Virus record (IMG/VR): IMGVR_UViG_3300021432_000031 | Coordinates: 1 to 29,676 of that record | Strand: one strand, 5' to 3' | DNA: 29,676 nucleotides | DNA from: a virus | In this document: piece by piece, positions 2,731 to 29,676 of the stretch | How positions within the stretch are numbered: the stretch's first letter is position 1 | How the letters are laid out: every line of letters starts with the position of its first letter | Notes under the pieces: model-generated | The model's input: only the letters and a program-made list of their open reading frames with translations | Database searches by the model: none | What the model was told of the DNA's origin: nothing | Program-made: the position numbers and the translations under genes

Positions 2731-3228
2731 ATGGCAAAAACCGCCACAGCACAACGCACCTCCGCAACATCCTTCTCAGACATCCTCAACACCAAAGCCT
2801 CCGATGTCGAACGCCCTGCCGCGATGCCAGTCGGCGATTACGTCGTCGTCGTCACCGGCCAGCCAAGGCAGGATAAGTCCGCGAAGAAGCAAACCCCCTT
2901 CGTGGAGTTCACCTACAAGGTCCTCGAAGCAATGGACTCCGTCGACTCCGACCAACTCGACGAGTGGCTGACGAATAAGAAAGGTGAGAAGAAGAAGCTG
3001 ACCGAGATCACGATCAAGGACACTTACTATCTCACCGAAAACTCCCTCTGGCGTCTCACAGATATGCTCAAGGCGTGTGGGCTCGATACCGAGTCCGACA
3101 CTTCCCTAGGCCAGTTGATCGAAGAGGCCCCTGGCTCGCAGCTGATCGTCACCATGCGGCATGAGTCGTTCCAAGACGGAACGGGCGTGAGCGCGAAGGT
3201 GGGTAGCGTAGCCGCGGTGGAGGAGTAA
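2731..3228 (+). CDS. Probable phage ssDNA-binding protein (DUF669-like)
   Basis: This 165-residue protein begins three bases after the ATPase stop. The N-terminus (SFSDILNTKASDVERP) is followed by beta strands (MPVGDYVVVVTG and TPFVEFTYKVLEAM), an acidic linker, a conserved-looking segment (IKDTYYLTENSLWRLTDMLKACG) and a final beta-rich domain (GSQLIVTMRHESF). The layout fits the DUF669-type or ssDNA-binding-like proteins that accompany Sak4 ATPases in phages, but that identification comes from memory of the family and from context. Its probable role is coating single strands during recombination or replication. It is followed two bases later by the Acb2-like gene. Confidence 0.55.
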   Translation: MAKTATAQRTSATSFSDILNTKASDVERPAAMPVGDYVVVVTGQPRQDKSAKKQTPFVEFTYKVLEAMDSVDSDQLDEWLTNKKGEKKKLTEITIKDTYYLTENSLWRLTDMLKACGLDTESDTSLGQLIEEAPGSQLIVTMRHESFQDGTGVSAKVGSVAAVEE

Positions 3229-3230
3229 CC

Positions 3231-3470
3231 ATGCCCGAGCAAACCTTCGGCGAAAAGGCTGTCGGCCTTTCGTTCAACCCCTCTGGGATGAGCGATGTCG
3301 ATAAGCTTAAGAAACTCTACGCCAACGTGATCGACCACCTCGACGACTTCCGCAAGGGATACATCGAGCGCGGTGACAACCCCGAAATGGTTCGGCTCTG
3401 CTCGATCGCTATCACAGAAGCGCAGACCGCGCAGATGTGGGCGGTCAAAGCCGTAACCTGGAGGGGCTAA
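3231..3470 (+). CDS. Acb2-like small protein (candidate cyclic-nucleotide sponge, anti-CBASS)
   Basis: This 79-residue protein starts at ATG 3231, two bases after the previous stop, with GGAGGAGTAACC immediately upstream. The N-terminal FGEKAVGLSFNPSG motif leads into a long helix (DKLKKLYANVIDHLDDFRKGY). A short turn is followed by a second helix ending CSIAITEAQTAQMWAVKAVTW. This helical hairpin with the A-x-T-x-x-x-x-A-x-M-W-A-V-K-A signature matches my recollection of the Acb2/Tad1 hairpin family. Acb2 members, including T4 Vs.4, sequester cyclic di- and trinucleotides and blunt CBASS immunity. The molecule is cytoplasmic and probably oligomeric. The assignment rests on motif memory without a search, and the ligand is unknown. 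Its codon usage matches its neighbours, so it looks like a settled member of this operon. Confidence 0.65.
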   Translation: MPEQTFGEKAVGLSFNPSGMSDVDKLKKLYANVIDHLDDFRKGYIERGDNPEMVRLCSIAITEAQTAQMWAVKAVTWRG

Positions 3471-3473
3471 GTA

Positions 3474-3842
3474 ATGAAGTGCCCCCAGGACCAAGTCTTA
3501 TGGCAAAGCCCTGGGGGCAACTATTGTTGGTTCTCCAAAGACTTCGAACCGGGTTTACATAGCAAAGAGTCAGGATGGATTAAGATGGCTGAGCCCCGCG
3601 ACCCACTCCTCGTCGAACGTGAGAAGACGCATGGATCGTTTGAATATAACGCCCAAGTTTGGAGCGCAATGTGTGCAGCGATACCAAGTGGTTTCGCTCA
3701 GCATAATCCAAGAATGCGATTAGCGGTTAACATGATGCTACTAAAAATTTCTCGTTTAGTGTCAGGTCCCAGTACGGCTTACAAAGATCATCTAGAAGAC
3801 ATCGCCGGGTACGCGAAGCTTGGGAGTGAGGCGTGTGACTGA
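3474..3842 (+). CDS. DUF6378-like phage protein
   Basis: The product has 122 residues. ATG 3474 has GGAGG upstream, and a second in-frame ATG at 3585 (residue 38) also has a purine-rich leader, so the true start is uncertain. The part after residue 38 carries LLVEREKTHGSF, a helix with NAQVWSAM, then AVNMMLLKISRLVSG and a terminal DHLEDIAGYAKLG. Those segments correspond to what I recall of DUF6378, a phage family of unknown biochemical function. The N-terminal 37 residues, with C3, C18 and several aromatics, are not something I recognise. The gene is visibly AT-richer than the genes on either side. Its last bases overlap the next gene by 8. Confidence 0.6.
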   Translation: MKCPQDQVLWQSPGGNYCWFSKDFEPGLHSKESGWIKMAEPRDPLLVEREKTHGSFEYNAQVWSAMCAAIPSGFAQHNPRMRLAVNMMLLKISRLVSGPSTAYKDHLEDIAGYAKLGSEACD

Positions 3843-4851
3843 CATTGCCATAGTGGGAGAGGCCTGGGGAGAGGCAGAGGAGAAAGCCCAGACCCCGTTT
3901 ATAGGATATTCGGGCCAGGAGCTCACCCGCATGCTCGAAGACGCAGGCATCCACCGCGCCGATTGCTTCCTCACCAACGTCTTCAACCTCCATCCCCCCG
4001 GCAACCAAGTGGAGTTCTTCTGTGGAACAAAAGCCGAAGGCATCGACGGGTACCCAGCCCTCACCAAATCTAAGTACGTCCGAACCGAATTTATTCCAGA
4101 GATACAGAGACTTGGAGAGGAGCTTGCATCAGTTAACCCAAATATCATCATTGCGTTGGGAAACACAGCTATGTGGGCCCTGCTGGGAAGGACTGCTATC
4201 AGTAAGTATCGTGGAACTACGGACATTTCTACACACACGGCTACAGGGTTCAAAGTGTTGTGTACATATCACCCCGCCGCCGTCTGTCGACAATGGGAAC
4301 TCCGACCCACGACTGTGATGGACCTGATAAAGGCCGCTCGCGAGTCCGCCTTCCCCGAAATCCGCCGCCCCGCCGTCTCGGTCCATATCCCAGAAACCAT
4401 CTCCGACCTAGAGGACTTCTATGCCCTACACATCCGAGGATGCCAATCGCTGGCTGTGGACATTGAAACAGCTGGAGTCCAGATCACCTGCATTGGGTTC
4501 GCACCTACGGCAGGAGATGCTCTCGTTATTCCAATCTTTGACCGACGAAGAAAGAACCGAAGCTATTGGCCTGATGCAGTCAGTGAAGGACAAGCTTGGG
4601 GCTTTATACGTAAGCTACTCATGGATCGAGCAATTCCTAAAATCTTCCAAAACGGAATGTACGACATCGCCTTCCTCTGGCGGTCCTACGGCCTGAAGGT
4701 GATGAATGCGGAGCATGATACCATGCTCCTCCACCACGCGCTCCAGCCGGAGTCGCTCAAAGGCCTCGGCTACCTCGGCTCGATCTACACCGACCACGGC
4801 GCGTGGAAGCAGATGCGGGAGAAGGTCACTACCATAAAACGTGACGAATAG
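3835..4851 (+). CDS. UDG-like domain fused to N-terminal part of PolA 3'-5' exonuclease (split polymerase, first half)
   Basis: This 338-residue protein starts at GTG 3835, which has GGGAGTGAGG upstream and overlaps the previous stop. Residues about 3-165 look like a uracil-DNA glycosylase: GEAWGEAEE (8-16), PFIGYSGQEL, a TNVFNLHPPG strand, IIIALGNTA and the YHPAAV motif with H146. Residues about 205-338 are the start of a family A exonuclease: Exo I LAVDIET with D209 and E211, and Exo II QNGMYD with N273 and D277. Exo III is absent; it lies in the separate reading frame that begins at 5263. The protein therefore ends inside the exonuclease domain at IKRDE, nine bases before an HNH gene. The UDG may excise uracil or only serve as a polymerase-associated module. 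The split was either made functional by re-association of the two halves or it inactivates proofreading. Confidence 0.8.
   Translation: MTDIAIVGEAWGEAEEKAQTPFIGYSGQELTRMLEDAGIHRADCFLTNVFNLHPPGNQVEFFCGTKAEGIDGYPALTKSKYVRTEFIPEIQRLGEELASVNPNIIIALGNTAMWALLGRTAISKYRGTTDISTHTATGFKVLCTYHPAAVCRQWELRPTTVMDLIKAARESAFPEIRRPAVSVHIPETISDLEDFYALHIRGCQSLAVDIETAGVQITCIGFAPTAGDALVIPIFDRRRKNRSYWPDAVSEGQAWGFIRKLLMDRAIPKIFQNGMYDIAFLWRSYGLKVMNAEHDTMLLHHALQPESLKGLGYLGSIYTDHGAWKQMREKVTTIKRDE
4843..4849 (+). repeat. Left copy of a 7-bp direct repeat flanking the HNH insertion
   Basis: GACGAAT occurs here at the last codons of the first polymerase half and again at 5221-5227, just after the HNH stop codon. The copies bracket the inserted endonuclease gene. 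Seven bases is short enough to be chance, but the position fits a junction duplication or a homing target remnant. Confidence 0.35.
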
Positions 4852-4859
4852 GTGAAAAT

Positions 4860-5219
4860 ATGCACAGAGAAGATAATCGACTAGACCCAACTTGTATCTC
4901 CTGGTATCTACGCGATCCAGGAGATGGGCAACTAATCTGGGAAAGAGATAGAGGCCAGCGTGGTAGAAAAGGACGATTAGCTGGATACGATCATATAGTT
5001 CGATTTGAGCATAGGTGGACAATACAGTTGGAGGGGCGTAAGTACCTACGAAGCCATTTGGTATTTGCGTTGCATAAATGCCGTTGGCCACAAGATGATT
5101 TAGTTATAGATCATGTCGACAAGAATACTGCCAATGACTCATACCATAATCTACAAGAGGTTACACAAGCAATCAATATGGAGACGAGGTACTATCCCAA
5201 TGGCCATGCACGTGCATAA
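4860..5219 (+). CDS. HNH homing endonuclease inserted in the polymerase locus
   Basis: This 119-residue protein has AGGTG shortly before ATG 4860. Its C-terminal half is an HNH_3-type nuclease: RSHLVFALHK, then VIDHVDKNTANDSYHNLQEVT with D84-H85, N92 and N97, and a final N106. The N-terminal half is basic (RGQRGRKGRL) and probably contributes DNA contact. It sits between the two polymerase halves, a typical place for a phage homing endonuclease, which spreads by cutting the uninterrupted allele. Its composition stands apart: in its first 44 codons only 13 third positions are G or C, against 27 of 36 at the start of the second polymerase half. This indicates recent transfer. A group I intron is considered unlikely because there is almost no room outside the gene. 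Confidence 0.85.
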   Translation: MHREDNRLDPTCISWYLRDPGDGQLIWERDRGQRGRKGRLAGYDHIVRFEHRWTIQLEGRKYLRSHLVFALHKCRWPQDDLVIDHVDKNTANDSYHNLQEVTQAINMETRYYPNGHARA

Positions 5220-5230: not shown

Positions 5231-5266
5231 ATGGGCCGATCAATTTCCGAAAAATTTTTCCCATGA
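5231..5266 (+). promoter_or_regulatory. Possible 11-codon leader coupling translation of the second polymerase half
   Basis: ATG 5231 has AAGGA (5218-5222) eight bases upstream. It opens an 11-residue frame (MGRSISEKFFP) that stops at TGA 5264-5266, overlapping the polymerase start ATG 5263-5265 as ATGA. The polymerase ATG itself is preceded by AAAAATTTTTCCC and no recognisable ribosome binding site. Re-initiation from this leader is a plausible way to translate the second half. It is inference from spacing alone. Confidence 0.4.
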
Positions 5267-6762
5267 AAGTCATCAAGACCGACGCCTCTGGCCCCGACGA
5301 CATCTCCCCCGCCGAGCGCGAATGGGTCTACAACGGTCTCGACTGCGTCATAACCCGCGAGGTTCTCGATGTCCTCCTTCCTCAACTCGATAATCAAACG
5401 TCGGGGACCTATTCCTTCTCCCGCGATCTCCAAGCCCCCATCCTCGAAATGCGTTGTCGCGGGGTCCTCATCGACCAAGCCCGCCGGGCCGAAGTCATCG
5501 ACGAATACTTCACCAAGCTCGACCAACTCGAAGAGCAGCTTAATCGCATCGTTGGCCACGGCCTTGGACTCTGGCAGTTTAACTGGCGATCGAATAAGGA
5601 TTTGCATCTCCTTTTCTACGATCACCTTGGTCTTCCACCCATCCGACGAGGTGGAAGACCTACAGTCAATCGCGAGGCTCTTGAGAAATTGGAGAGCTAT
5701 TTCTCTGCAAGATTGATCGTCGCGCATATGCTGGTCATGCGCGATATGCAGAAGAAGATCAGCATGCTCAAGACGGAGATCGACCCCGATGGAAGAATGC
5801 GAACGAGCTATAATATCGCAGGCACTACAACAGGTCGCCTCAGCTCTAGCTTTAGCGAGTTCGGAACAGGAACGAACCTCCAAAATATTGAAGAAAGCCT
5901 GCGATCAGTGTTTGTCAGTGATCCAGGATATAAGCTCGCCTACCTCGACGCCGAGCAGGGGGAGTCCCGCGTCGTCGGGGCCATCGAACACAACCTCTTT
6001 GGGGACGATAGATATCTGGATGCCTGCGAAGGGGGTGACCTCCACACAACTGTCGCAAGGCTTGTTTGGCCACACTTGGATTGGCCGGGTACCAATCACG
6101 GGGATCGTGAACTTGCAGAACGGGTGTATTATCGACATTATGATCGACGTTTTATGTGCAAGAAAATTGGCCACGGCTCTAACTACGGAGGCAAACCAAG
6201 GACCCTTGCCAATCAAGCTAGAATTGACATTGGACTCATCGAGGATTTCCAGCCTAAGTATTTTCGAGCGTTCCCGGCCCACCTCCGCTGGCACGCCTGG
6301 GTAGACCGCACCCTCCGCGAGGACGGGTACCTCACCACCTTAACCGGCCGCAAGCGCTGGTTCTTCGGGAGACGAAACGATGACTCGACTCTTCGTGAGG
6401 CTATTGCCTACGACCCTCAAGGAAGCCTTGCTGATATCCTTAATCGAGGAATGTTGCAGGTCTGGAGATACGGTATATGCGTTCTACTTATGCAAATACA
6501 TGACGCAGTTCTTATCCAATATCCAGAGTCCCAGGAGGATGAAATTATTCCAAGAGTGCTTGAAGCACTTTCTGTCCCGATCATGTTGGATAATGGACGG
6601 CAATTCATAATCCCCTACGGCGTCCAGACCGGTTGGAACTGGGGCAAGTGGGACGAGGAAAACAATCCAGATGGCCTTAAGAGCTACAAGGGTAATGACC
6701 AACGGAAGCGCACGCCGCCGGTGCCAATCCTGGATCGCAGCCTTCGTAAAGTACACCGATAA
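5263..6762 (+). CDS. Family A DNA polymerase, second half (Exo III plus polymerase domain)
   Basis: This 499-residue protein carries Exo III near its start (WVYNGLDC, Y23 and D27) and then a full polymerase domain. The TGRLSSS ... TNLQNI segment is at 190-209, motif A at 228-235 (LDAEQGES, D229), motif B around 295-309 (RRFMCKKIGHGSNYG, K300/K301, H304, Y308) and motif C at 411-415 (QIHDA, H413, D414). The catalytic residues of a PolA-type replicative enzyme are all present. Exo I and Exo II are on the other polypeptide (3835-4851), so proofreading would require the halves to assemble. The start at 5263 lacks a ribosome binding site of its own. Codon usage alternates between C-ending and AT-ending blocks along the gene. 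The next gene overlaps its 3' end by 92 bases if that gene starts at 6671. Confidence 0.88.
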   Translation: MKVIKTDASGPDDISPAEREWVYNGLDCVITREVLDVLLPQLDNQTSGTYSFSRDLQAPILEMRCRGVLIDQARRAEVIDEYFTKLDQLEEQLNRIVGHGLGLWQFNWRSNKDLHLLFYDHLGLPPIRRGGRPTVNREALEKLESYFSARLIVAHMLVMRDMQKKISMLKTEIDPDGRMRTSYNIAGTTTGRLSSSFSEFGTGTNLQNIEESLRSVFVSDPGYKLAYLDAEQGESRVVGAIEHNLFGDDRYLDACEGGDLHTTVARLVWPHLDWPGTNHGDRELAERVYYRHYDRRFMCKKIGHGSNYGGKPRTLANQARIDIGLIEDFQPKYFRAFPAHLRWHAWVDRTLREDGYLTTLTGRKRWFFGRRNDDSTLREAIAYDPQGSLADILNRGMLQVWRYGICVLLMQIHDAVLIQYPESQEDEIIPRVLEALSVPIMLDNGRQFIIPYGVQTGWNWGKWDEENNPDGLKSYKGNDQRKRTPPVPILDRSLRKVHR

Positions 6763-9856: not shown

Positions 9857-10334
9857 TTGGGTACCCCTGTGTGAATATCTTCGCCTCGCGTTGCCTACGT
9901 CCTAGCAGGATGGGCACCATAGCCCCGTGGATGTGCGCATACCGCCAAGCACAAAACGCAGCGGTGATCTCATCAGCGTTTGTCACGCCCTTGTTAATCA
10001 ACACCAGGAGCCCGGACCGATCCAGGGCCCCTGTGTTGAAGTCAAAGCTAACCAATGCATCGAACTGGTTCTGGTTCACCTGCACCGTAAGGTGGTGGTT
10101 AATGTCCGCCTCCACGCTTGCCAGATCGCTCGCCAAGATCGCGTCGGCCTGGTCAGCAGTGATCGACATTCCTGGGTATACTCTAGGAAGTCCCGCTGCT
10201 GTAGTATGTCCAAAGCCAATCGTCCACGTTCCTGTTCCGTCATTATAGGCCTTGAGCTTTGCAACACCACTCTCCTCCTCCATCTCGATGAACTTCCGGC
10301 CAGCGGCCGAGGTTTTCATTGGGGTTGGGATCAT
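9849..10334 (-). CDS. GH24 T4-type lysozyme (endolysin)
   Basis: This 161-residue enzyme starts at ATG 10334, which overlaps the upstream stop as ATGA and has AGGAG eight bases upstream. The GH24 core is visible: an acidic helix end EEESGV (E21 the likely catalytic acid), YNDGTGTWTIGFGHT with D32 and T38 matching the E-D-T triad of T4 lysozyme, then QFDALVSFDFNTGAL and a C-terminal GRRQREAKIF. It cleaves the N-acetylmuramic acid to N-acetylglucosamine bond of peptidoglycan. There is no signal peptide or SAR helix at the N-terminus, so release should depend on a holin, consistent with the next gene. Confidence 0.9.
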   Translation of the reverse strand: MIPTPMKTSAAGRKFIEMEEESGVAKLKAYNDGTGTWTIGFGHTTAAGLPRVYPGMSITADQADAILASDLASVEADINHHLTVQVNQNQFDALVSFDFNTGALDRSGLLVLINKGVTNADEITAAFCAWRYAHIHGAMVPILLGRRQREAKIFTQGYPNV

Positions 10335-13300
10335 CTCCTAGGCTCCTGTTGTGTGCCGGTGCGAACGCCCTTCCAGAGGTCACCAAAGCCCTTGGGGTGC
10401 TCCTTCCCGGCAAGGACGTTGATGAGATACTCCCCGAGCTTGTCAGTGGACTGGGTCGTGAGCCCGGTGCTGAGGGAGAGAACATCTGCCGCGGTCCGGA
10501 AGGTCTTGCCGGGGTTGGTGCGGTAATCGTAGCTCTTGGTGCTGAGGGATTTCTTCACGTCCTGAGCGAGGGTGCCATAGAGGCCGATGGAAGGATCGTG
10601 CCCGTCGATCAGGTAGTTGGAGACGTCCCGTACCAAGGGGACCTGGGCCGGGTACCCACGGAGAAGCATCTTGGCCAAGTGGGCGCCTTCGCTCTCATCG
10701 CTCTTCTTCGGCTGGCCTGAGATCAGGTGTTCGATCAACCCAACCGCAAGGCCGAAGACCGCGACCCCACCCATGATAGGGAGGATATGCTGAGGTCCCG
10801 CCTCGAACTTTTCCTCAAGGAACCCAGGCATCTCCGGAAGCTCGCGCCCTTGCGTCGCCAGCTTTGCCTTCCAAGCGAGTTCGTAGTTCCGTTGAAGGGC
10901 GTTGCTAAGGAAGGTGTAGAAGGGCATGATAAGGCGGACGAATGGGGACTGATGCCGCTGCACGGCGGAGCGGTTGGTTAAGATCGAGGACCCATGCGTC
11001 CTACGCACCGCGGTATCAGCCGCATACACAAGGTCACCATGCGTCATATCCGGATCGGCCTTGTTCAGCCGCCGATACTCCGCATCCCACATTGACACCG
11101 CTGAGAGCAAGTCCCCCGCCCCCACCGGCGCATGGCCCCACCAATTAACCGCATCGCGGAAGGACTCCAGCTTCACCCGCGTGGCATCGAACGCCCGGTT
11201 CTTCTGGGTTCGAAAGAGTTCCTTGTTCTGGGCGACGATGGTGTCCTGGACATTGTGCAGCCGGTTGCGGATTTCCTCACTATTATCCATCGCGAACTTC
11301 CACCGCTCTCGCGAGCCAGGGAGTTCGTGGATCATATGAAGCATCGACGAGGCCCAGTTGCCAAGGCCGACTTCCCAAGAGGAGAATATCCCGGCGGTAA
11401 GCCCATGCTTCGCCACCGTCCCTGGGTTGAACCCGATCATCATCGTGGACATGTTCTGGGCGAGGGAGTTGACCCAGCGATCGAGGGCCCGCATGTTCGC
11501 CGGTTGCCATTGGCGGTTGCCAGCGGCGTCCTTCATCCAGGCATCGAGGGCGGAGTGGTATTCAGGGCCGTAGTATTCCTTGAACGCTTCCATGAACTTT
11601 TTATTGTAAACGATCTTGCTCACCTCCGTGATCGGTATCCTCATCGCGGCGTCGTTGAGGATTTGCTTTAGCTTGAACGCTGCGGACTCGAACGAGAGGT
11701 CAAGGGGGTACCGCGCCCCGGTGCGGGTCTTGGTATAGCCAGAGGCGGGTGAGGGTTTCCAAAACCCACTGTCCCCCATCATGTCGTCGACCGTCATCTT
11801 CGACGAGTGGCGAAGAGGGTCCGCGATCAGTGGGTGGTACCATTCATCCGCATCGCCCCAGGGGGTTCGGACTTTGTAAAGTTCGATCCTTGCAGGTGCG
11901 ACCCCAGCGGTGTGGACGTAGGCATGCTCGGCTAGGGTAAAGGCATCGCTGTAAACCTTCCCCATCCGTTGCGCCCGCTTGAGGTCTTCAGGCCCCATCC
12001 CTGCGGTGTTCTGTAGCCAGTGCCATACCATCTGCTCGCCGACATCCTGATCCTTGGAAATGTTCCAACCGTCGATGAGCTTGCGGCGCTGGAGGGCATT
12101 GCCCATATTCTGGAGGACCGCATAGGCATGCCCCTTGGTCATGTCGATGAACCGGCCGTCGTCGGTGCGGAAGAGGGTATTGGTGAGCTTCTTGTTAAAG
12201 TCAGGGAACGGGCCGAGGTCTTTCCACTTCGCCGCGAAGTCCCTGTTCAGTTGGCGAAGGTAGTTCTGCCCTTCAGTAATCGGGCGCATGATTAGTTGAT
12301 TGAATGGGCCCTGACGATTACCAAGGTCGAGCCGGTTGAGCCAAGTCTCGGTATTCAACAAGAGCGAGCCGATGGTCCTGAACTTACTCTCCTCATGCGC
12401 CCCCTGAACCGCGGGCTTATTATCCACCGCGGCCTTAAGGCGCTCGACCAGCCCTGAGACGACATTCGCCAGATCGATCTTATTCCCCTTCACCGTGTAC
12501 TTGTTCGCCTCATGCCCGTAGTGGTTGATCGACTTGAGGGAGTCGTAGACCCCTTGGAACTCGGCGGTGCTGAGGCCCTCGAAATCCTTCCCTGGCCAGT
12601 TGGTAGAGAAGAGTTCAGGGAGGACGTTGAGGGTGTGGGTGACAGGGGGGTTGTCAGGATCGGTAGAGGCCGTTCCGTTCGCCCTATTCCTCGCCTCGAC
12701 ATACTCGCGTAGGTTCGCGTACCGCGACGACATTTCCTTCCTTCGCTCAAGGTCCTGCCGCGAGGTCTGTATCCCATCCGGGCCTAGAACTTGAAGAAGT
12801 ATCTGATGCATCCACACCGCGTCCTCTTGCGGAACACCTGGGGGCTCCCTCCTCCCCCAGCGGGGCGCGTCAGTTTCCTTAAACCTCTTAAGCCCCTTCT
12901 CAAACTTAAGAGCAAGGTTAGCATAGATCGCGGCATTCGCCTGCTCTTGCTTGGCCTTAAGGGCGGCACGATAGTCACCTTTGAGCAGGGCGTCCTGAAC
13001 GGCTTGACCGGCCCGGCCGGAGGAGGCCTCGAAGGCTTTGGACGAGATAGCCCGTAATGGCGAGGCATTGAACACCTGCCTTGCTCCTTTCAGGAGGTCC
13101 TCTTTGGTGATAGGGAGTTCGGACTTTGCCAACGACGCGAGGTGGATGGTCTCGTCAGCGAGGATGTCGATCTGCGATGGCGAGAAGACATGCTCCTTGG
13201 CTTCGCGGAGGATATTCTCTTCGAGGTCCCCATACCGCCGTTGCATCTCATGCTCGGTGGCGACGCTCACCATCTTCGATATGTGCGCCTGCGGCGTTAG

Positions 13301-16168
13301 CCCCTCCAGATCGCGTTCCGCCTTTAGCTGCCCTAGGGCCTGAACTAAGGAGTCCCCAGACTGGTAGCCAAAGAGTCTAGCCATATCATCAGGGTTAGCG
13401 CCACCGCTAGCGTAATAGTCAGGAGATAGGCTTCGAATCTGCTCATCGGTTAAGGCTCCTTTATCGAGTTTGAAAGCCCCAGCCTTACGGCCCTCGAGAA
13501 TGCCCTCACGGAGGTAGCGGTCGGCGGCGATCACTGGACGGCGATAGACGCCTTCGCGGACCTCGGACCGAACGGTCTTCTGGTTCTCTTTCCACTCCGC
13601 GGTCTGCCGCTTGCGCTCATCTTCGAGCGCCTTGCTCTCAACGTGCTTGGCCTCAACCTCTTGCTGCCTCTCGATCAGGCCCATGTACTTGCGTAGGTCG
13701 TCGGCCTTGAGCCCGACGGTAGCGGGGGTCTTGAAGGCCTTACGATCTTCGATAGGCTCGGCCCCTAAGGCCTCCCCTCCTCGCCTCGTTACCTTGTTAG
13801 CTTCCTCGAACGCCTCACCGATCCGCATCATCCCGTCAAGGACAGTAGGAGGAACCTTCACCCCCGTTAGGCGCTGGACTAAGTTAGCAACAATCTGCTT
13901 CACCGCGTCCCAGACCGAGGACGATTTCGCGTTCAGCCCAAGGCGCCCAGCGAGTTCGTTTGATAGCGGGGTGGTAGCGAGGACTTCCTGGAACCGTGGG
14001 TTGGAGAAAGTCTCAGCAACGAACTCGTCTTCGTTCTTGAAAGCGTACTTATGAACCTCACGATCCTCAAAGGCGTTCTTGCTAAGCCACTTATCAGCCT
14101 CGCCCATTAAGCTCCCAACCATCTGCTTGATGGCGGGGAACTCCCTCATCTCGTTATAGGTCGCGGCGTGGGCGACTTCGTGGATCAGGATATGGGTCGC
14201 GACATCATGCCCAAGCATCCCACTCGCAGCATCTTCGCGCATTATTATCGCGTGCTGATCAGGGTAGTAAAACCCTGGAGTGTTCGGCCGGACTCTAACG
14301 TTCTTATTAAGCTCCTTCATCAAGTTGTTAGGGGCAACCCAGATCGGGGTATCACCAGCGAGCTTATCAAGGCGATTGTGAAAGAACTCTGCAAGGGCGC
14401 GGGGGACGCCGGTTAGCTGGTCCTTATCAACAAGGGCCATCCCTTCTCGAGCGGGAAAGGTTTTGACGATACGGTCGCCGCTATCGGTGGTAAGGGTAGC
14501 GTCCTTAGCCGTCTCCGGGATCAACGACTGGGGCTGCTCTCGGAAGATCGGGTTCAGGCCCGCGGCGTCTCGGATGGAGGCCATAGCAGCGACGTGAGGA
14601 CCTTGGTTTATTGCCACACGCGTACGGGTTTGTTCTACACCAGCCGCTCCCCTCGCTCCAGTATCTCTATAGGCTGTGATGGACCTGGCTTCAGGAAACT
14701 GCCGAGCCAATTCGTCCCGCACTGCTTTGACACCTGCAATGCCCAAGGACCCACGGCCTTCTTCACTACCCATATAATCGACGTGAAGCTCCTTGCCACG
14801 ATCGGTTACTTGAATAGTTCCAGCGGCGTTGCCAGAGTCGTTGATGTTGAACACATGCTCGTTTGGGCCTTGATGCTCACCAACCCAAGTACCTTTCTCG
14901 AGAGTGATTGCGGGCTCTTCCTCTTCCTTCGGCTCCGCCGCCTTCCTCTCCGCTGCAAGCTCCCCCTCCGCCTGCGTCACGCCCCCTGGCATAGCCGCGA
15001 ACTTCTCTAGGAACTTCGCCTCCTCAGGGTTCTTATTCTGGAACAGAAACCAATCCGCGAGGGGGACCTGGACGTGGCCACCATGCCGCTCGGCTAACTG
15101 TAGCTCCTGCTCGAAGCCAGGGATATCCCCAAAGCGATCATCACCGGGGGTGGGGATATCTTCGCCGTAGAGGGATCGGACCGCGTCGGCTTGGAGTTCG
15201 ATGTGCCCAGGATTATGCGCGTTGACAAAGGCCTTGAACGACTCCGGGTCCCGCTCAATAGTGTTGGTGGCGTTAGCAGCCTGCCCTTGCTCCTTGAGGG
15301 ATTTGATAAATTCCTTCTGCTCGTCCTGCCTTACATCGTCGATGATCTTACTCACCCCAGGCGGTGGGACTTCCCCAGCCTTGAGATAAGGCGCGACCTT
15401 CTGTATCTCCTCGTGGAGCTTCGCTAACTCCCCTTGCCCTTGAATCAACGCCGCCCCATGCTCCATCAGCAAGGGGTTGATCGAGGCCATCGCGCCAGGA
15501 TCGGAGATCGCTTGGAGGAAGTTCTCAACCGAGTCGGACCCTGACTTGCCGGTTATGGTTTCGTACGATCGCCGGATGGATTGGATAACCGCGTTGATTA
15601 TGCCACCAGGGGCGCGAAAGGCGAGGTCCAAGGGGGCCCCAGCTATCGTCCCTAGGGCCATCAGGGCCCCCAACCCCGGATGAGCCTGGGCCTCTTCTAA
15701 GCTCCTTGGTGCATTGCCGAATAGGCCAGGTGGGCCGTACCCTTCTCCAAAGTCCTTGGCCGCTTGCACTACGCTGGTCCCCAACCTTCCCGCCGGGGTG
15801 GCTTGGAGAGCCTGCGAGAACGCGTCCAGTTGCCCCCAGTCGTCGTTGGAAATCTTCGACCCGAGAGGGTGGGTTTGGATATAGTCCCGGATGAAGGGGT
15901 TATTGTCGAGGATTTGGGAAGTCAGCGCCGCCTTGTGTTGCTGCTCAAAGCTCTCAAGGTTCCCATAGACAAGCCCGGGTCCAGCGCCAGTGGCCTCAGC
16001 CAACTGCTGGGCCCGAGCGGCGTCATCGGGGTTCGCCTCAAGGTCATTGATCGCCCCAACCGTCGCCCTACGGCGCTGGTTCAGGACATAGGCGGCGGGG
16101 TTTAGATTGAGGACGTTATCCTCATCAAGCCCACCGTCGTACTCTTGGTCAAGGTCCTGTTGCGCCAT
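10331..16168 (-). CDS. Giant internal virion/ejection protein with metallopeptidase motif (T7 gp16 position)
   Basis: This 1945-residue protein has an acidic N-terminus (MAQQDLDQEYDGGLDED). Recognisable parts include a Gly/Ala-rich hydrophobic stretch near 165-200, a polyvalent-protein module ending VQVPLADWF near 370, and a domain around 440-510 with ELHVDYMG and SITAYRDTGARG that resembles a GNAT-like or polyvalent-protein-associated domain. A zinc peptidase motif HEVAH lies at 663-667 within THILIHEVAHAATYNEM, followed by DEFVAETFSNPRFQEVL. Long charged helical regions follow, with a hydrophobic segment near 1793-1812 (ILPIMGGVAVFGLAVGLIEHL). By position after gp11- to gp15-like genes it should be the protein ejected into the host envelope at infection. 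T7 gp16 is about 1318 residues, so this one is much longer. Peptidase activity is inferred from the motif. Confidence 0.75.
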   Translation of the reverse strand: MAQQDLDQEYDGGLDEDNVLNLNPAAYVLNQRRRATVGAINDLEANPDDAARAQQLAEATGAGPGLVYGNLESFEQQHKAALTSQILDNNPFIRDYIQTHPLGSKISNDDWGQLDAFSQALQATPAGRLGTSVVQAAKDFGEGYGPPGLFGNAPRSLEEAQAHPGLGALMALGTIAGAPLDLAFRAPGGIINAVIQSIRRSYETITGKSGSDSVENFLQAISDPGAMASINPLLMEHGAALIQGQGELAKLHEEIQKVAPYLKAGEVPPPGVSKIIDDVRQDEQKEFIKSLKEQGQAANATNTIERDPESFKAFVNAHNPGHIELQADAVRSLYGEDIPTPGDDRFGDIPGFEQELQLAERHGGHVQVPLADWFLFQNKNPEEAKFLEKFAAMPGGVTQAEGELAAERKAAEPKEEEEPAITLEKGTWVGEHQGPNEHVFNINDSGNAAGTIQVTDRGKELHVDYMGSEEGRGSLGIAGVKAVRDELARQFPEARSITAYRDTGARGAAGVEQTRTRVAINQGPHVAAMASIRDAAGLNPIFREQPQSLIPETAKDATLTTDSGDRIVKTFPAREGMALVDKDQLTGVPRALAEFFHNRLDKLAGDTPIWVAPNNLMKELNKNVRVRPNTPGFYYPDQHAIIMREDAASGMLGHDVATHILIHEVAHAATYNEMREFPAIKQMVGSLMGEADKWLSKNAFEDREVHKYAFKNEDEFVAETFSNPRFQEVLATTPLSNELAGRLGLNAKSSSVWDAVKQIVANLVQRLTGVKVPPTVLDGMMRIGEAFEEANKVTRRGGEALGAEPIEDRKAFKTPATVGLKADDLRKYMGLIERQQEVEAKHVESKALEDERKRQTAEWKENQKTVRSEVREGVYRRPVIAADRYLREGILEGRKAGAFKLDKGALTDEQIRSLSPDYYASGGANPDDMARLFGYQSGDSLVQALGQLKAERDLEGLTPQAHISKMVSVATEHEMQRRYGDLEENILREAKEHVFSPSQIDILADETIHLASLAKSELPITKEDLLKGARQVFNASPLRAISSKAFEASSGRAGQAVQDALLKGDYRAALKAKQEQANAAIYANLALKFEKGLKRFKETDAPRWGRREPPGVPQEDAVWMHQILLQVLGPDGIQTSRQDLERRKEMSSRYANLREYVEARNRANGTASTDPDNPPVTHTLNVLPELFSTNWPGKDFEGLSTAEFQGVYDSLKSINHYGHEANKYTVKGNKIDLANVVSGLVERLKAAVDNKPAVQGAHEESKFRTIGSLLLNTETWLNRLDLGNRQGPFNQLIMRPITEGQNYLRQLNRDFAAKWKDLGPFPDFNKKLTNTLFRTDDGRFIDMTKGHAYAVLQNMGNALQRRKLIDGWNISKDQDVGEQMVWHWLQNTAGMGPEDLKRAQRMGKVYSDAFTLAEHAYVHTAGVAPARIELYKVRTPWGDADEWYHPLIADPLRHSSKMTVDDMMGDSGFWKPSPASGYTKTRTGARYPLDLSFESAAFKLKQILNDAAMRIPITEVSKIVYNKKFMEAFKEYYGPEYHSALDAWMKDAAGNRQWQPANMRALDRWVNSLAQNMSTMMIGFNPGTVAKHGLTAGIFSSWEVGLGNWASSMLHMIHELPGSRERWKFAMDNSEEIRNRLHNVQDTIVAQNKELFRTQKNRAFDATRVKLESFRDAVNWWGHAPVGAGDLLSAVSMWDAEYRRLNKADPDMTHGDLVYAADTAVRRTHGSSILTNRSAVQRHQSPFVRLIMPFYTFLSNALQRNYELAWKAKLATQGRELPEMPGFLEEKFEAGPQHILPIMGGVAVFGLAVGLIEHLISGQPKKSDESEGAHLAKMLLRGYPAQVPLVRDVSNYLIDGHDPSIGLYGTLAQDVKKSLSTKSYDYRTNPGKTFRTAADVLSLSTGLTTQSTDKLGEYLINVLAGKEHPKGFGDLWKGVRTGTQQEPRR

Positions 16169-25028: not shown

Positions 25029-27839
25029 CTATGGGAAGTGGGTTGAGGCGAACTTAAGCTGGGCATCAGTGCCTGCGAAGGCAAAGTCGCAGGGGTAGTC
25101 ATGGCCACAGCCAGGGGCGACTTGCAACGCGTCGTGGGTAACGCCAGCGTAGTCGAGGAGGTTGTAGAAGTCCGTCGCGACACCCTCTAACGAGTCAGCG
25201 CTGCCGATGAGAACATGGATCGGGAGGCCGTTGATGTTAGGGGCGTTGTAGGAGCCCGCGGCCCAGACGGTGTCGTTTTGCCAAGCCACCAAGCTGTTGT
25301 TGAAAAGGACAGATAGCTGAGTAGGCTCCGACGAGGTAGGGCTAACGCAGGGGCCGGAGGATGAGCAGAAGGGATAGTTCGGCGCTACGTCATCGCTGGC
25401 CGGGGCGCCGCAGTAGGCAGAGGAAAACATCTGGGGGTACTTCGTAGCGAACCGCATACAGGCCTGCCCACCCATCGAGAAGCCGAAGAGTGCCCGGCCG
25501 GTTTTATTGGCGATGGTGCTATAAGCCGCGTCGATCGCGGGGATGGCCTCGCTGATGAACATATTCTGCGGCGCCCAGGTGCCGTAGTTCGGCGATCCTG
25601 GCTGGGCGTTGCGGCTATCGCCGGAGAGGCCGTTGTTCACCTCGACGATGATCATTGGTTTGATCGTGCTGGCGAGGATGTCGGTCTGGGCGATCTGGAA
25701 AAGGTCGGGGGAGTTGAAGCCGACATAGCCGTTCTCGTTGCTACCCGAGCCGGGGAAGATATAAAGGACCGGGAACGGGCCCCCGGTTGGATAGCCCGGC
25801 GGGGTATAGATGACGTAGCCGACGTCCACGTTCAGCAGGTTGCTGTGGTAGGTGTGATGCGAGACGCCGGTATCGCCATTGCAGCAGCCACCAGGGGTGC
25901 TCCAAACGGTGCCATCGTAGGGGGCGATGGGCGTGGCGACGGTGTAGGTGAACGGAGTGGGGTTGGTCCAACTCTGAGCGTTGGTGATGGTAAGGGTCTT
26001 GGCGCCAGCGGTGGCGTTCTTGTAGGTGAAGGTGAAACTGGTAGTGCTGATGGTGGGGGTCACCGTAACGGTGCTGGTCCCAGGCGAGCCAACCGAGGGG
26101 GTGATGGTACCACCGGCGCCCCCATCGGCGATGGTGACAGTCTCCGACCCAGAGAAGACGCCGGTGTTGCGCTTCACGGTGAAGGGCAACGAAGGCGAGC
26201 TTGTCACATTCGCCATGTAAGGGGGTGGGGTAACTGTGTAAGTCACGGTGGAGGGGATGACCTCTACGATTAGTGGGTGCGCTCCGATTGTCGTGCTGAT
26301 TGAGGCCACGCTCGATGAGGTGCTGATCGGGGCCGTCCCGGCCATAGGGTCGTAGACGTTGACGGTGTCTGCGGTAAGGCCAAAGGCAACGGTGATGGAG
26401 GAATTGGAAGGGGTGATCGGCGCGTGAGTGGAGTCGTTCCAGATCGCCGGCTCTTTCCAGATTAGGATTTCGAAGTTGCCATTGGTCTTCTCAAGCAGGG
26501 TAGAGAACCCACCACCAGCGCCAGGGGCGGGGAGGCCGCTGATGGAGTAGTTCAGTCTGGTAGGGGTGAACCCGGTTGCAGAGTCGGCGAGGATCGTCTG
26601 CATGTTGGCGATGACCGCGCCTGAGGTCTTGGCTGAGGTCTGGTCGCTTTGATAGAGGCCGTAGTTGTCGAAGCAGGAGTTGTCGCCGGTGGTCACATCG
26701 AAGATGGTGTAGGCGGTAGTGTATTGGACATTGGCACTGAACATATCAAGGTAATTGTTCAGCAGGAGGTTGGCCTGGGTAGTCATGTTGACAAGGCCGG
26801 TGGTGCCAGTGCCGGTGCACCAGCCAGTCTCAGTCACTACGTATGGCTTTCCAGGTAACGCCGCCGTGGCTGGGTTAAGGTAAGAGATTATCGAGCTACC
26901 AGCGTAGGTGGTTGGCTGTGCACCACCAGGAATTGGATAGAAGTGGAGGTTGTTGTAATCGGCGGTACCGGCGATGCTGGGGGGCTGAGGGCTCGCGCCT
27001 GAGACGAAGGAGGTGTAGTTGGCAACCTTCACACCAGATAGGTTCGCCTGCGTGGCGTTGTAGATTAGAACTTGCCAAGCGAGGCTGGATGCGGTGGAGG
27101 CCACGGTCGTGCCAGGGACTGCGCCCTGGGCTTGGAACTGGATAGTGTCGCCATTTGTGACAGTGACGCTGGCGCTCAAGGTTACGGTGGACGAGGTAGC
27201 AGAGACGATCGTGGTGTTGGCTGGGATCGCTGAGGGGTGGGTGGTGTCGGTGACGGTGATGCCTGAGCCGGCGGAGATCGTGCCACCGTTGGTGTAGGTG
27301 TAGCCAGCAACGGTGACGACTTCGGCTGGGGTTGAGGTAAAGTTCACCACCGAGCCAGTGCTACCGGTCGCGGTAGCGGTGTTGTTGTAACAGACAGGGA
27401 AGTTGTTGGTTTCATTCGGCCCTTCGTTGGCAACGAGTTGACCAGGGAAGGACCCGATGAAGGTGTTCTCAAAGGCAATGACGGTGGCGATGCTAGAAGG
27501 GTTGTTGGCGCAGCTAGTCAGAGGGAAGGAACTGAACCCGTTGGCCCAGAGGAAGTCAAAGCGGATGCCCTGCGCGGCGAGGGCATTGTAATTGCCTCCG
27601 CTATCGCCGGAGTTGGGCATTATCGTCCGCGCGATGGTCATCCCCATCGCTGCCATAGCCGCGCCGATTGTGCTTGCAGGGGTGCCTTGTGGGTCGACCA
27701 CGCCGATGGTATTGGTGAAGGTCTTCGCCCGCTGCGCGAGGACGCCGCCAGATGCACCGCCTCCGGCGAAGCGACTACCGCTAGGCCAAGCGCCTAAGGA
27801 GACAGCGGCTAGGGCTAGGGCAATGCCAAGGCGGTGCAT
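25029..27839 (-). CDS. Secreted-type glycoside hydrolase plus esterase fusion
   Basis: This 936-residue protein starts at ATG 27839, sharing a base with the fibre stop (TAATG) and with GGAG nine bases upstream; a GTG at 27854 is possible. Residues about 1-22 (MHRLGIALALAAVSLGAWPSG) look like a Sec signal peptide. Residues 35-420 fit a clan GH-A barrel: NEGPNE (acid/base E143 or E139) and VVTETGW (nucleophile E337), interrupted by a beta-rich insert at about 150-245. A beta-sandwich (VNVYDPMAGT) and an Ig-like segment follow. Residues about 635-936 are an esterase D/feruloyl-esterase-like alpha/beta hydrolase: GFSMGG with S788, D882 in GSADSLEG and H913 in GCGHDYP. It could strip glycan and ester groups from host exopolysaccharide. 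A signal peptide is odd for a virion protein. The families were assigned by motif only. Confidence 0.75.
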   Translation of the reverse strand: MHRLGIALALAAVSLGAWPSGSRFAGGGASGGVLAQRAKTFTNTIGVVDPQGTPASTIGAAMAAMGMTIARTIMPNSGDSGGNYNALAAQGIRFDFLWANGFSSFPLTSCANNPSSIATVIAFENTFIGSFPGQLVANEGPNETNNFPVCYNNTATATGSTGSVVNFTSTPAEVVTVAGYTYTNGGTISAGSGITVTDTTHPSAIPANTTIVSATSSTVTLSASVTVTNGDTIQFQAQGAVPGTTVASTASSLAWQVLIYNATQANLSGVKVANYTSFVSGASPQPPSIAGTADYNNLHFYPIPGGAQPTTYAGSSIISYLNPATAALPGKPYVVTETGWCTGTGTTGLVNMTTQANLLLNNYLDMFSANVQYTTAYTIFDVTTGDNSCFDNYGLYQSDQTSAKTSGAVIANMQTILADSATGFTPTRLNYSISGLPAPGAGGGFSTLLEKTNGNFEILIWKEPAIWNDSTHAPITPSNSSITVAFGLTADTVNVYDPMAGTAPISTSSSVASISTTIGAHPLIVEVIPSTVTYTVTPPPYMANVTSSPSLPFTVKRNTGVFSGSETVTIADGGAGGTITPSVGSPGTSTVTVTPTISTTSFTFTYKNATAGAKTLTITNAQSWTNPTPFTYTVATPIAPYDGTVWSTPGGCCNGDTGVSHHTYHSNLLNVDVGYVIYTPPGYPTGGPFPVLYIFPGSGSNENGYVGFNSPDLFQIAQTDILASTIKPMIIVEVNNGLSGDSRNAQPGSPNYGTWAPQNMFISEAIPAIDAAYSTIANKTGRALFGFSMGGQACMRFATKYPQMFSSAYCGAPASDDVAPNYPFCSSSGPCVSPTSSEPTQLSVLFNNSLVAWQNDTVWAAGSYNAPNINGLPIHVLIGSADSLEGVATDFYNLLDYAGVTHDALQVAPGCGHDYPCDFAFAGTDAQLKFASTHFP

Positions 27840-29676
27840 TAGTTCTGACTCCACTGCGTGCCGTTGTAAGTCACAGCGGTGCTTTGGTAATTGGTGCCAA
27901 GGGTTATCAACGAGACTCCGTCGATGGTGGTTGGGGAAATGGAAACGATGGTGATGCTATGGGTAGCGGCGTTACCACCGCAGTCTTTGATGAGGAAGGT
28001 CAGGCCGTTCGCACCAGCGGGGAGGTTCTCGGTAGCTGCGCCAGAGGTGTTGAGTGGGCAGACGAAGTAGTCGGTGGTGGCGGAGATGGAGTCGGTGGTG
28101 CTGACCGCGGTGCGGACGGGGACCTTTAACGCGCCGGTGAAGGTGCTTACGCCAGCAAGGGTGGTGTTGCTAAGGGTCGAGACATTGGAGAAGACCACGT
28201 TGCCAGTGCCGGTGGGGGTGCCGACTGGAACGCCTGCGATCTTAGCAACCGAGGCAGATGCCGCGCCTGGGCCGGTGGCAACGACATCGCCGAAGAGGGA
28301 GGTGATACCACTCCCACCGGCACCAGCGGCGCTTTCGATGTACGGGTACCAAGCATTGTTAGCCGCGTTGTATTGCATCGCGAGGGGGATGTTCGCGGTT
28401 AGGCTCGCTGGCGCTCCAACGACGGTACTGCCATCGGTGGTAGATACCGTTAGGTTGGTGATGGTTTGGGTAGAGGTGATGTGGCTGACGTAGCCATCGC
28501 TGGCAAAGACCGTCGCGGCGGGTGGGAGTTGCAAGGTCAGGGTGGAGAGGATGCCAGCGGGGGTTAGGATTTGGTTAGGCTGGCTCCCTGAGAGGACGAC
28601 CGTGCCTCCGGTGGTAGGGGTGGAGACCACCGTTACTGGGATGTCTGAGTGGGCGTTTGGTAATATCCACCCTGGCTTATCCCCTGGCCAGAAGGTTGGA
28701 GAGCCGGTGGAGTTATAGAGGGTCGCGGCGTAGGCGTAGAATTGGAATGTGCTGGTGGGGGAACCGCTGTAAGCGGTGCAATGATCTTCGATCAGACCCC
28801 CTTCGGTGGTGTCGACGAAGAAGGTGAATACGGAACTGGCTTGGATCGTTACCGATGAGGCGAAGTTGACAATGAACGACCCAGCGCCAGCGGCGATGAA
28901 GGCTGCGCTGGTTCCGGTGTTGAGAGTGCCAGTGCCGTAGATGTTAAGCACAGCGAATGGGTTGATGGTCTGGACCATAACGCCGGAGGAGGTAACTGGG
29001 GCAAGGGCCCAACTACCGGTATGGCCGGATACGGAGGTTGCGTTGGATGGGAGGGTGGCGCCGAGGATGATGCTGCCGCCGTAGACGAGGATGTCGTTAA
29101 CGGTCGATGAGGTCCCAAGCAGAACGTTGTTGATGGTAATTACCGGCGCGGTGGTTGCGCCTACGACAGGGAAGAAGGTGAGGTCGTTGATCCGAGTGGT
29201 GGTTGCACCAGCGCCGATGATATTAACATACTTCATCCCCACCCACGGGATTTGGGATGAAAGGGTGTAAGGGCCTGCGCCAACGAGGTGGATGTTTACG
29301 CTAAAGCCTAACCCATCGAGGGTGCCAGCGAGATGCTCGTAGGTGTATTGAAGATGCTGACAGGGCGAGCCGACTGAACAGGGGTTGCTGTCTGAGCCGG
29401 TGGAGGAGTTGACGTAGAAGTCAGTGTCAGCGGAAAGGATAGTTCGCTCAGTGGAGGAGGTGCAGGAGAATACCCCACTGGAGTTGACGGTGCAGCTACC
29501 GCTGGCGACTTCGAACAAGGGGGTGGTGCCAGCGCCTTGGTCGATGAGGATGCGACCGGCGGTGCCAGCGGCCGGGCCGCATTGCCAAGTGCCGGTGATA
29601 CGGACTAGGAGGTCGTTGTCGGTCGAGCAGATTTCGTCGATGACCGCTGAGGGAGTGGTATCAGCGAGGAGGGTAC
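27839..29676 (-). CDS. Tail fibre/spike, right beta-helix type (5' end beyond window)
   Basis: The frame is open to the right edge, giving at least 611 residues with the N-terminus missing. The first visible segment (SAVIDEICSTDNDLLVRITGTW, GTAGRILIDQGAGTTP) resembles the repeat motif common in phage tail fibres that precedes receptor-binding parts. Residues about 70-300 of the visible part, from DTDFYVNSSTGSDSNPC through PYTLSSQIPWVGMKYVNIIGAG, have the short alternating strands of a pectin-lyase-like beta-helix. The C-terminal 200 residues are Ser/Thr/Gly-rich with another fibre-type motif (GITSLFGDVVATGPGAA). Such proteins bind or cut surface polysaccharide. It is coupled to the downstream hydrolase/esterase gene. 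Confidence 0.78.
   Translation of the reverse strand, partial: TLLADTTPSAVIDEICSTDNDLLVRITGTWQCGPAAGTAGRILIDQGAGTTPLFEVASGSCTVNSSGVFSCTSSTERTILSADTDFYVNSSTGSDSNPCSVGSPCQHLQYTYEHLAGTLDGLGFSVNIHLVGAGPYTLSSQIPWVGMKYVNIIGAGATTTRINDLTFFPVVGATTAPVITINNVLLGTSSTVNDILVYGGSIILGATLPSNATSVSGHTGSWALAPVTSSGVMVQTINPFAVLNIYGTGTLNTGTSAAFIAAGAGSFIVNFASSVTIQASSVFTFFVDTTEGGLIEDHCTAYSGSPTSTFQFYAYAATLYNSTGSPTFWPGDKPGWILPNAHSDIPVTVVSTPTTGGTVVLSGSQPNQILTPAGILSTLTLQLPPAATVFASDGYVSHITSTQTITNLTVSTTDGSTVVGAPASLTANIPLAMQYNAANNAWYPYIESAAGAGGSGITSLFGDVVATGPGAASASVAKIAGVPVGTPTGTGNVVFSNVSTLSNTTLAGVSTFTGALKVPVRTAVSTTDSISATTDYFVCPLNTSGAATENLPAGANGLTFLIKDCGGNAATHSITIVSISPTTIDGVSLITLGTNYQSTAVTYNGTQWSQN

Follow-up and report, generated by a model that had tools for sequence, protein, structure and literature searches.

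Cyclic nucleotides serve bacteria as an infection alarm, and the tested members of the Acb2/Tad1 family soak them up. Whether a short gene in the replication operon of the virus in IMG/VR record IMGVR_UViG_3300021432_000031 encodes another such sponge is the question raised by this locus, and it was addressed within the window, the whole stretch of 29,676 nucleotides analysed (positions 1 to 29,676 of the record). An earlier note, made from the sequence alone, had proposed an Acb2-like anti-CBASS protein in a rhizobial-type phage. The protein adds a member to the known Acb2/Tad1 family, and a probability of roughly 70% is assigned to the reading that it is an Acb2-family nucleotide sponge, a hexamer that would trap cyclic oligonucleotides.

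The acb2-like gene runs from ATG to TAA at positions 3231 to 3470 of the + strand and encodes 79 amino acids, MPEQTFGEKAVGLSFNPSGMSDVDKLKKLYANVIDHLDDFRKGYIERGDNPEMVRLCSIAITEAQTAQMWAVKAVTWRG, confirming the open reading frame of the earlier note and including both of the segments it had quoted, FGEKAVGLSFNPSG (residues 6-19) and ITEAQTAQMWAVKAVTW (residues 61-77). A Shine-Dalgarno region (GGAGGAG; 3215-3225, + strand) lies in the end of the upstream DUF669 gene, just 5′ of the ATG. Relatives are encoded at 329 places in viral contigs, the closest being 93-96% identical. Comparisons with close relatives gave dN of 0.03-0.13 and dS from 0.65 to saturation, with a median dN/dS of about 0.06 over the pairs with usable dS, and 24 residues are invariant across 35 diverse relatives. 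Given these relatives, this ratio and these invariant residues, the open reading frame is a real gene under constraint.

The gene order around it is PD-(D/E)XK nuclease, Sak4-like AAA ATPase, DUF669, acb2-like, DUF6378, uracil-DNA glycosylase (UDG)/3′-5′ exonuclease, HNH, family A polymerase, and DNA primase-like. The DUF669 protein (2731-3228, + strand; Pfam PF05037) has a predicted OB fold, with a model nearest to PrgE, a plasmid protein that binds DNA (VIA Z 11.0, Foldseek E 1e-5), and, after PrgE, resembling SSB, PriB, and RPA, which suggests that it binds ssDNA. The 3′ neighbor encodes a DUF6378 protein (3474-3842, + strand; Pfam PF19905), for which no credible solved relative was found; related phages repeatedly carry its gene at the corresponding position, whether or not the acb2-like gene is there too. 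The UDG/3′-5′ exonuclease (3820-4851), HNH (4860-5219), and family A polymerase (5263-6762) follow as separate genes on the + strand. The possibility that an intron splits the polymerase gene was rejected, as exonuclease and polymerase are separate open reading frames in 83 of the 83 relatives showing both. The earlier note was right about the location of the acb2-like gene, which has the ssDNA-binding-like gene on one side and, beyond DUF6378, the polymerase genes on the other. Elsewhere in the window, on the - strand, a 941-residue protein (25029-27854) matches the Pfam Esterase domain over residues 671-889 (E 1.3e-15) and is perhaps a receptor- or capsule-modifying virion enzyme, and a 1945-residue large polyvalent protein (10331-16168) contains an LPD22 domain (E 1.5e-13). 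An Rfam search of the whole window gave no match.

Membership in the Acb2/Tad1 family is supported by profile searches. The Pfam model PF24729, Acb2_Tad1_hairpin, matches the protein with E 3.9e-9 and 37 bits, above its curated cut-off of 27 bits; T4 Vs.4, the sequence of which came from the PDB hit and from the T4 record, scores 70 bits against the same model. The best PHROG for both proteins is phrog_717 (E 2.7e-8 for the acb2-like protein and 4.7e-32 for Vs.4). A single-sequence search of the PDB returned chance matches only, and a family profile was needed: with a profile from 35 relatives, Vs.4 ranked first among all PDB sequences at E 0.081, not significant alone, and PaMx33 Acb2 reached E 1.6, while a broader profile of 17 diverse members placed Vs.4 second at E 0.0084. 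The top match of the broader profile, an AI-designed TIM barrel, was rejected as a repeat artefact composed of four weak 8-bit matches. HHalign of two narrow alignments (Neff ~2) returned an uninformative probability of 5%. PADLOC and NCBIfam searches gave no match, the PADLOC models representing defence and not counter-defence. None of the searches retrieved Tad1, and this absence was not counted as evidence.

The predicted structure agrees with this assignment. An AlphaFold2 model of the protomer (pLDDT 95) contains helices at residues 6-11, 21-47, and 51-76, so the two helices described in the earlier note correspond to the two long ones, to which a short N-terminal helix must be added; the layout matches that of the Acb2 protomer (PMC10419184). 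Among PDB entries, Foldseek ranked Vs.4 first (probability 0.94) and PaMx33 Acb2 third (probability 0.63), both with E ~1, and VIA-align also placed Vs.4 first, with Z 8.0 and 2.4 Å over 64 residues, followed closely by unrelated hairpins at Z 7 to 7.7. The best two matches among predicted viral structures (E 1.2e-3 and 3.7e-3) bear the name Acb2/Tad1 hairpin proteins. The outcome named by the earlier note as counting against its assignment, neither an HMM nor a structure matching Acb2 significantly, was not obtained. The fold match supports the Acb2 assignment but would not decide it alone, given the Foldseek E value to Vs.4 and the scores of the unrelated hairpins.

The proven T4 Acb2, Vs.4, was shown by experiment to be a hexameric cGAMP sponge that contacts its ligand through Y8, H11, K23, R79, and F82 and needs L29, A66, A73, and A77 to form the hexamer (PMC10097602). 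Judged by where the Pfam and PHROG alignments end, the residue numbers of Vs.4 and the acb2-like protein differ by 4 along helix 1 and by 6 along helix 2, so that K23 maps to K27 (codon 3309-3311, + strand), R79 to K73, F82 to T76, and A66, A73, and A77 to A60, A67, and A71. The helix-2 face from A60 to W77, which carries A60, A67, A71, K73, and the T76-W77 pair in the F82 region, is encoded at 3408-3461, and a conserved loop motif, F15-N16-P17-S18, at 3273-3284, both on the + strand. F15, K27, K73, A60, A67, and A71 are invariant in 35 of 35 subfamily members, and all of these except A71 are invariant in a wider set of 17; the invariance of the alanines is only moderately beyond chance, as 12 of 26 helix-2 positions are invariant. 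The position of Vs.4 L29 is occupied by V or I in the subfamily, and Vs.4 H11 found no clear counterpart in the mapping. MAFFT aligns Vs.4 Y8 with F15 and P10 with P17, making F15 the likely counterpart of Y8, although this match is uncertain because the MAFFT gap placement disagrees with the HMMs in helix 1.

Comparison with the characterized sponges shows both retained and altered features. The acb2-like protein and Vs.4 (PDB 7uq2) have in common the PF24729 hairpin, their best PHROG, the fold, the mapped lysine, basic residue, and three alanines, and an MWA-(C/V)-(R/K)-A motif, yet they are only ~23% identical, the acb2-like hairpin has about ten fewer residues separating the mapped contacts, and the Vs.4 N-terminus IEDIKGYKPHT is replaced by TFGEKAVGLSFNPS. 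The Acb2 of PaMx33 (p26; PDB 8h2x, 8h2j, 8ixz) resembles the acb2-like protein in protomer layout, an aromatic residue before helix 1, a helix-1 lysine, a basic residue near the C-terminus, and the absence of F82, whereas its identity is very low, its PDB chains comprise 92-93 residues, and it lacks the MWAVKA motif.

If the protein acts as its characterized relatives do, six copies would assemble into a hexamer, with the small residues on one face of helix 2 (A60, A67, A71) at the contacts, and cyclic oligonucleotide second messengers would be trapped in pockets between protomers, the lining of which would be formed by K27, K73, and the N-terminal FNP loop. During infection, such a sponge would lower the amount of free alarm molecule, whether a CBASS di- or trinucleotide or some related signal, leaving the host suicide effector inactive. 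From Vs.4 and PaMx33 Acb2 we infer the hexamer, the ligand binding, and the CBASS inhibition alike.

The ligand cannot be read from sequence, since published sponges bind several types of signal, and the explanation that competes best is a sponge of the same fold with a different target: the cADPR isomers of Thoeris, as in Tad1, cyclic trinucleotides only, or a new messenger, to the exclusion of dinucleotides. In published work, separate sites of Acb2 take up di- and trinucleotides, and cADPR isomers are further ligands of Tad1 (PMC12043709); the PF24729 hairpin model spans both Acb2 and Tad1. In addition, F82, the mutation of which lowers the cGAMP affinity of Vs.4 more than 25-fold (PMC10097602), is replaced by T76 in 35 of 35 subfamily members, which carry an aromatic residue at 77, and among the wider relatives neither 76 nor 77 is aromatic. 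PaMx33 Acb2 also lacks F82 in the alignment, so this replacement alone is no argument against dinucleotide binding. Tad1 has an N-terminal antiparallel four-stranded sheet that helps form its gcADPR pocket (PMC12043709), whereas the AlphaFold2 model of the acb2-like protein has 20 residues and no strand before the hairpin, and the dinucleotide-contacting lysine and a basic residue at the R79 position are kept. A sponge directed at a signal other than dinucleotides is considered unlikely, though it deserves more weight than either of the other two rivals.

Two-helix hairpins are common and unrelated ones score nearly as well as Vs.4 in VIA-align, so the likeness could be superficial, with the protein being a small coiled-coil of other function or a family member that has lost sponge activity. 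Against this stand the two HMM libraries that pair the protein with Vs.4, evidence independent of the fold, and the invariance of the mapped contact and interface residues, and such an explanation is improbable.

The behavior of the gene among related phages bears on whether it is cargo or a replication component. Related loci were collected through their AAA protein, without regard to the acb2-like gene, which was present in 18 of the 64 modules in which the DUF669 and polymerase genes were both visible and missing from the other 46; merging identical DUF669 C-termini gave 14 of 54. In several relatives, DUF669 directly abuts the exonuclease gene. L138 and L190, two loci from one metagenome, share 94% identity as far as the DUF669 stop and 90% beyond the acb2-like gene, which alone is missing from L190, and L140 repeats this pattern. 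Counted over distinct AAA/DUF669 pairs, the gene lies before DUF669 in 21 and after it in 23, and in unrelated phages it is found beside terminase (Pmp11) or between internal virion genes (PS3). This pattern of partial presence, clean single-gene absence, and two insertion positions is cargo-like, and counter-defence by an optional single-gene cassette fits better than replication. A helper in replication or recombination, for which the operon location in this lineage and the strong purifying selection might speak, is the least probable explanation, as the gene is dispensed with in most related modules, is cleanly absent from near-identical ones, and occupies varied positions.

Proteins of the same type, with a GEK-VG--FNPS and QMW-VKA signature, 34-60% identity, and the same length class, are encoded by Pasteurella phage Pmp11, Enterobacter phage EcP1, Flavobacterium phages, and Providencia phage PS3, where they are uncharacterised and annotated as hypothetical, with other hosts and gene neighborhoods. 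These FNPS-type relatives extend to Aggregatibacter phages, soil viral contigs, and genome contigs of Bacteroidota, Pasteurellaceae, Burkholderiales, Rhizobiales, and Saccharibacteria, the last including MAGs. One genome of Avibacterium paragallinarum holds five copies at different places (L103, L105, L106, L107, and L108), which suggests several related prophages. A tentative further proposal, held with considerably less confidence than the sponge assignment, is that the FNPS-type proteins form a distinct and very widespread sponge subfamily with a remodelled pocket and a ligand other than the cyclic dinucleotides of T4 and PaMx33 Acb2, encoded within replication operons by a single gene that behaves as an optional cassette.

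The description of the virus as a rhizobial-type phage was not confirmed, the nearest polymerase of an isolated phage, that of Caulobacter phage Kuura, being only 39% identical. The only close copy of the acb2-like protein in the cellular genome set, 92% identical, lies on a 7.4-kb contig that was binned with a Terriglobia MAG and may be misbinned. A SMODS-type nucleotidyltransferase scored above the cut-off in 14 of 101 sampled Terriglobia genomes, the link to a Terriglobia host being weak, and from this sample no CBASS system could be assigned to the host of the phage. Separately, Rhizobium phage RHph_N2_6 encodes a 112-residue Vs.4-like protein (GYQPQSDEKV...MWLNRAVFQP; locus L201, 2896-3234) that is annotated as hypothetical and was the only rhizobial phage match to Vs.4 seen.

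Annotation of Acb2 by homology is already practised, as in the Statler announcement, and a 2024 preprint described Acb2 as comparatively uncommon and confined to particular groups of phages (PMC11722364); no functional study of the FNPS subfamily was found in the open-access literature. The defence system Panoptes punishes phages that carry Acb2 (PMC12657218), a possible reason why only about a quarter of the related genomes keep the acb2-like gene. Because nearly identical phages occur in nature both carrying and lacking the gene, what it costs and what it gains a phage could be compared directly. If the FNPS subfamily does act as a sponge, cyclic-nucleotide counter-defence would have a far wider reach among phages and hosts, extending to soil phages whose hosts are uncultured.
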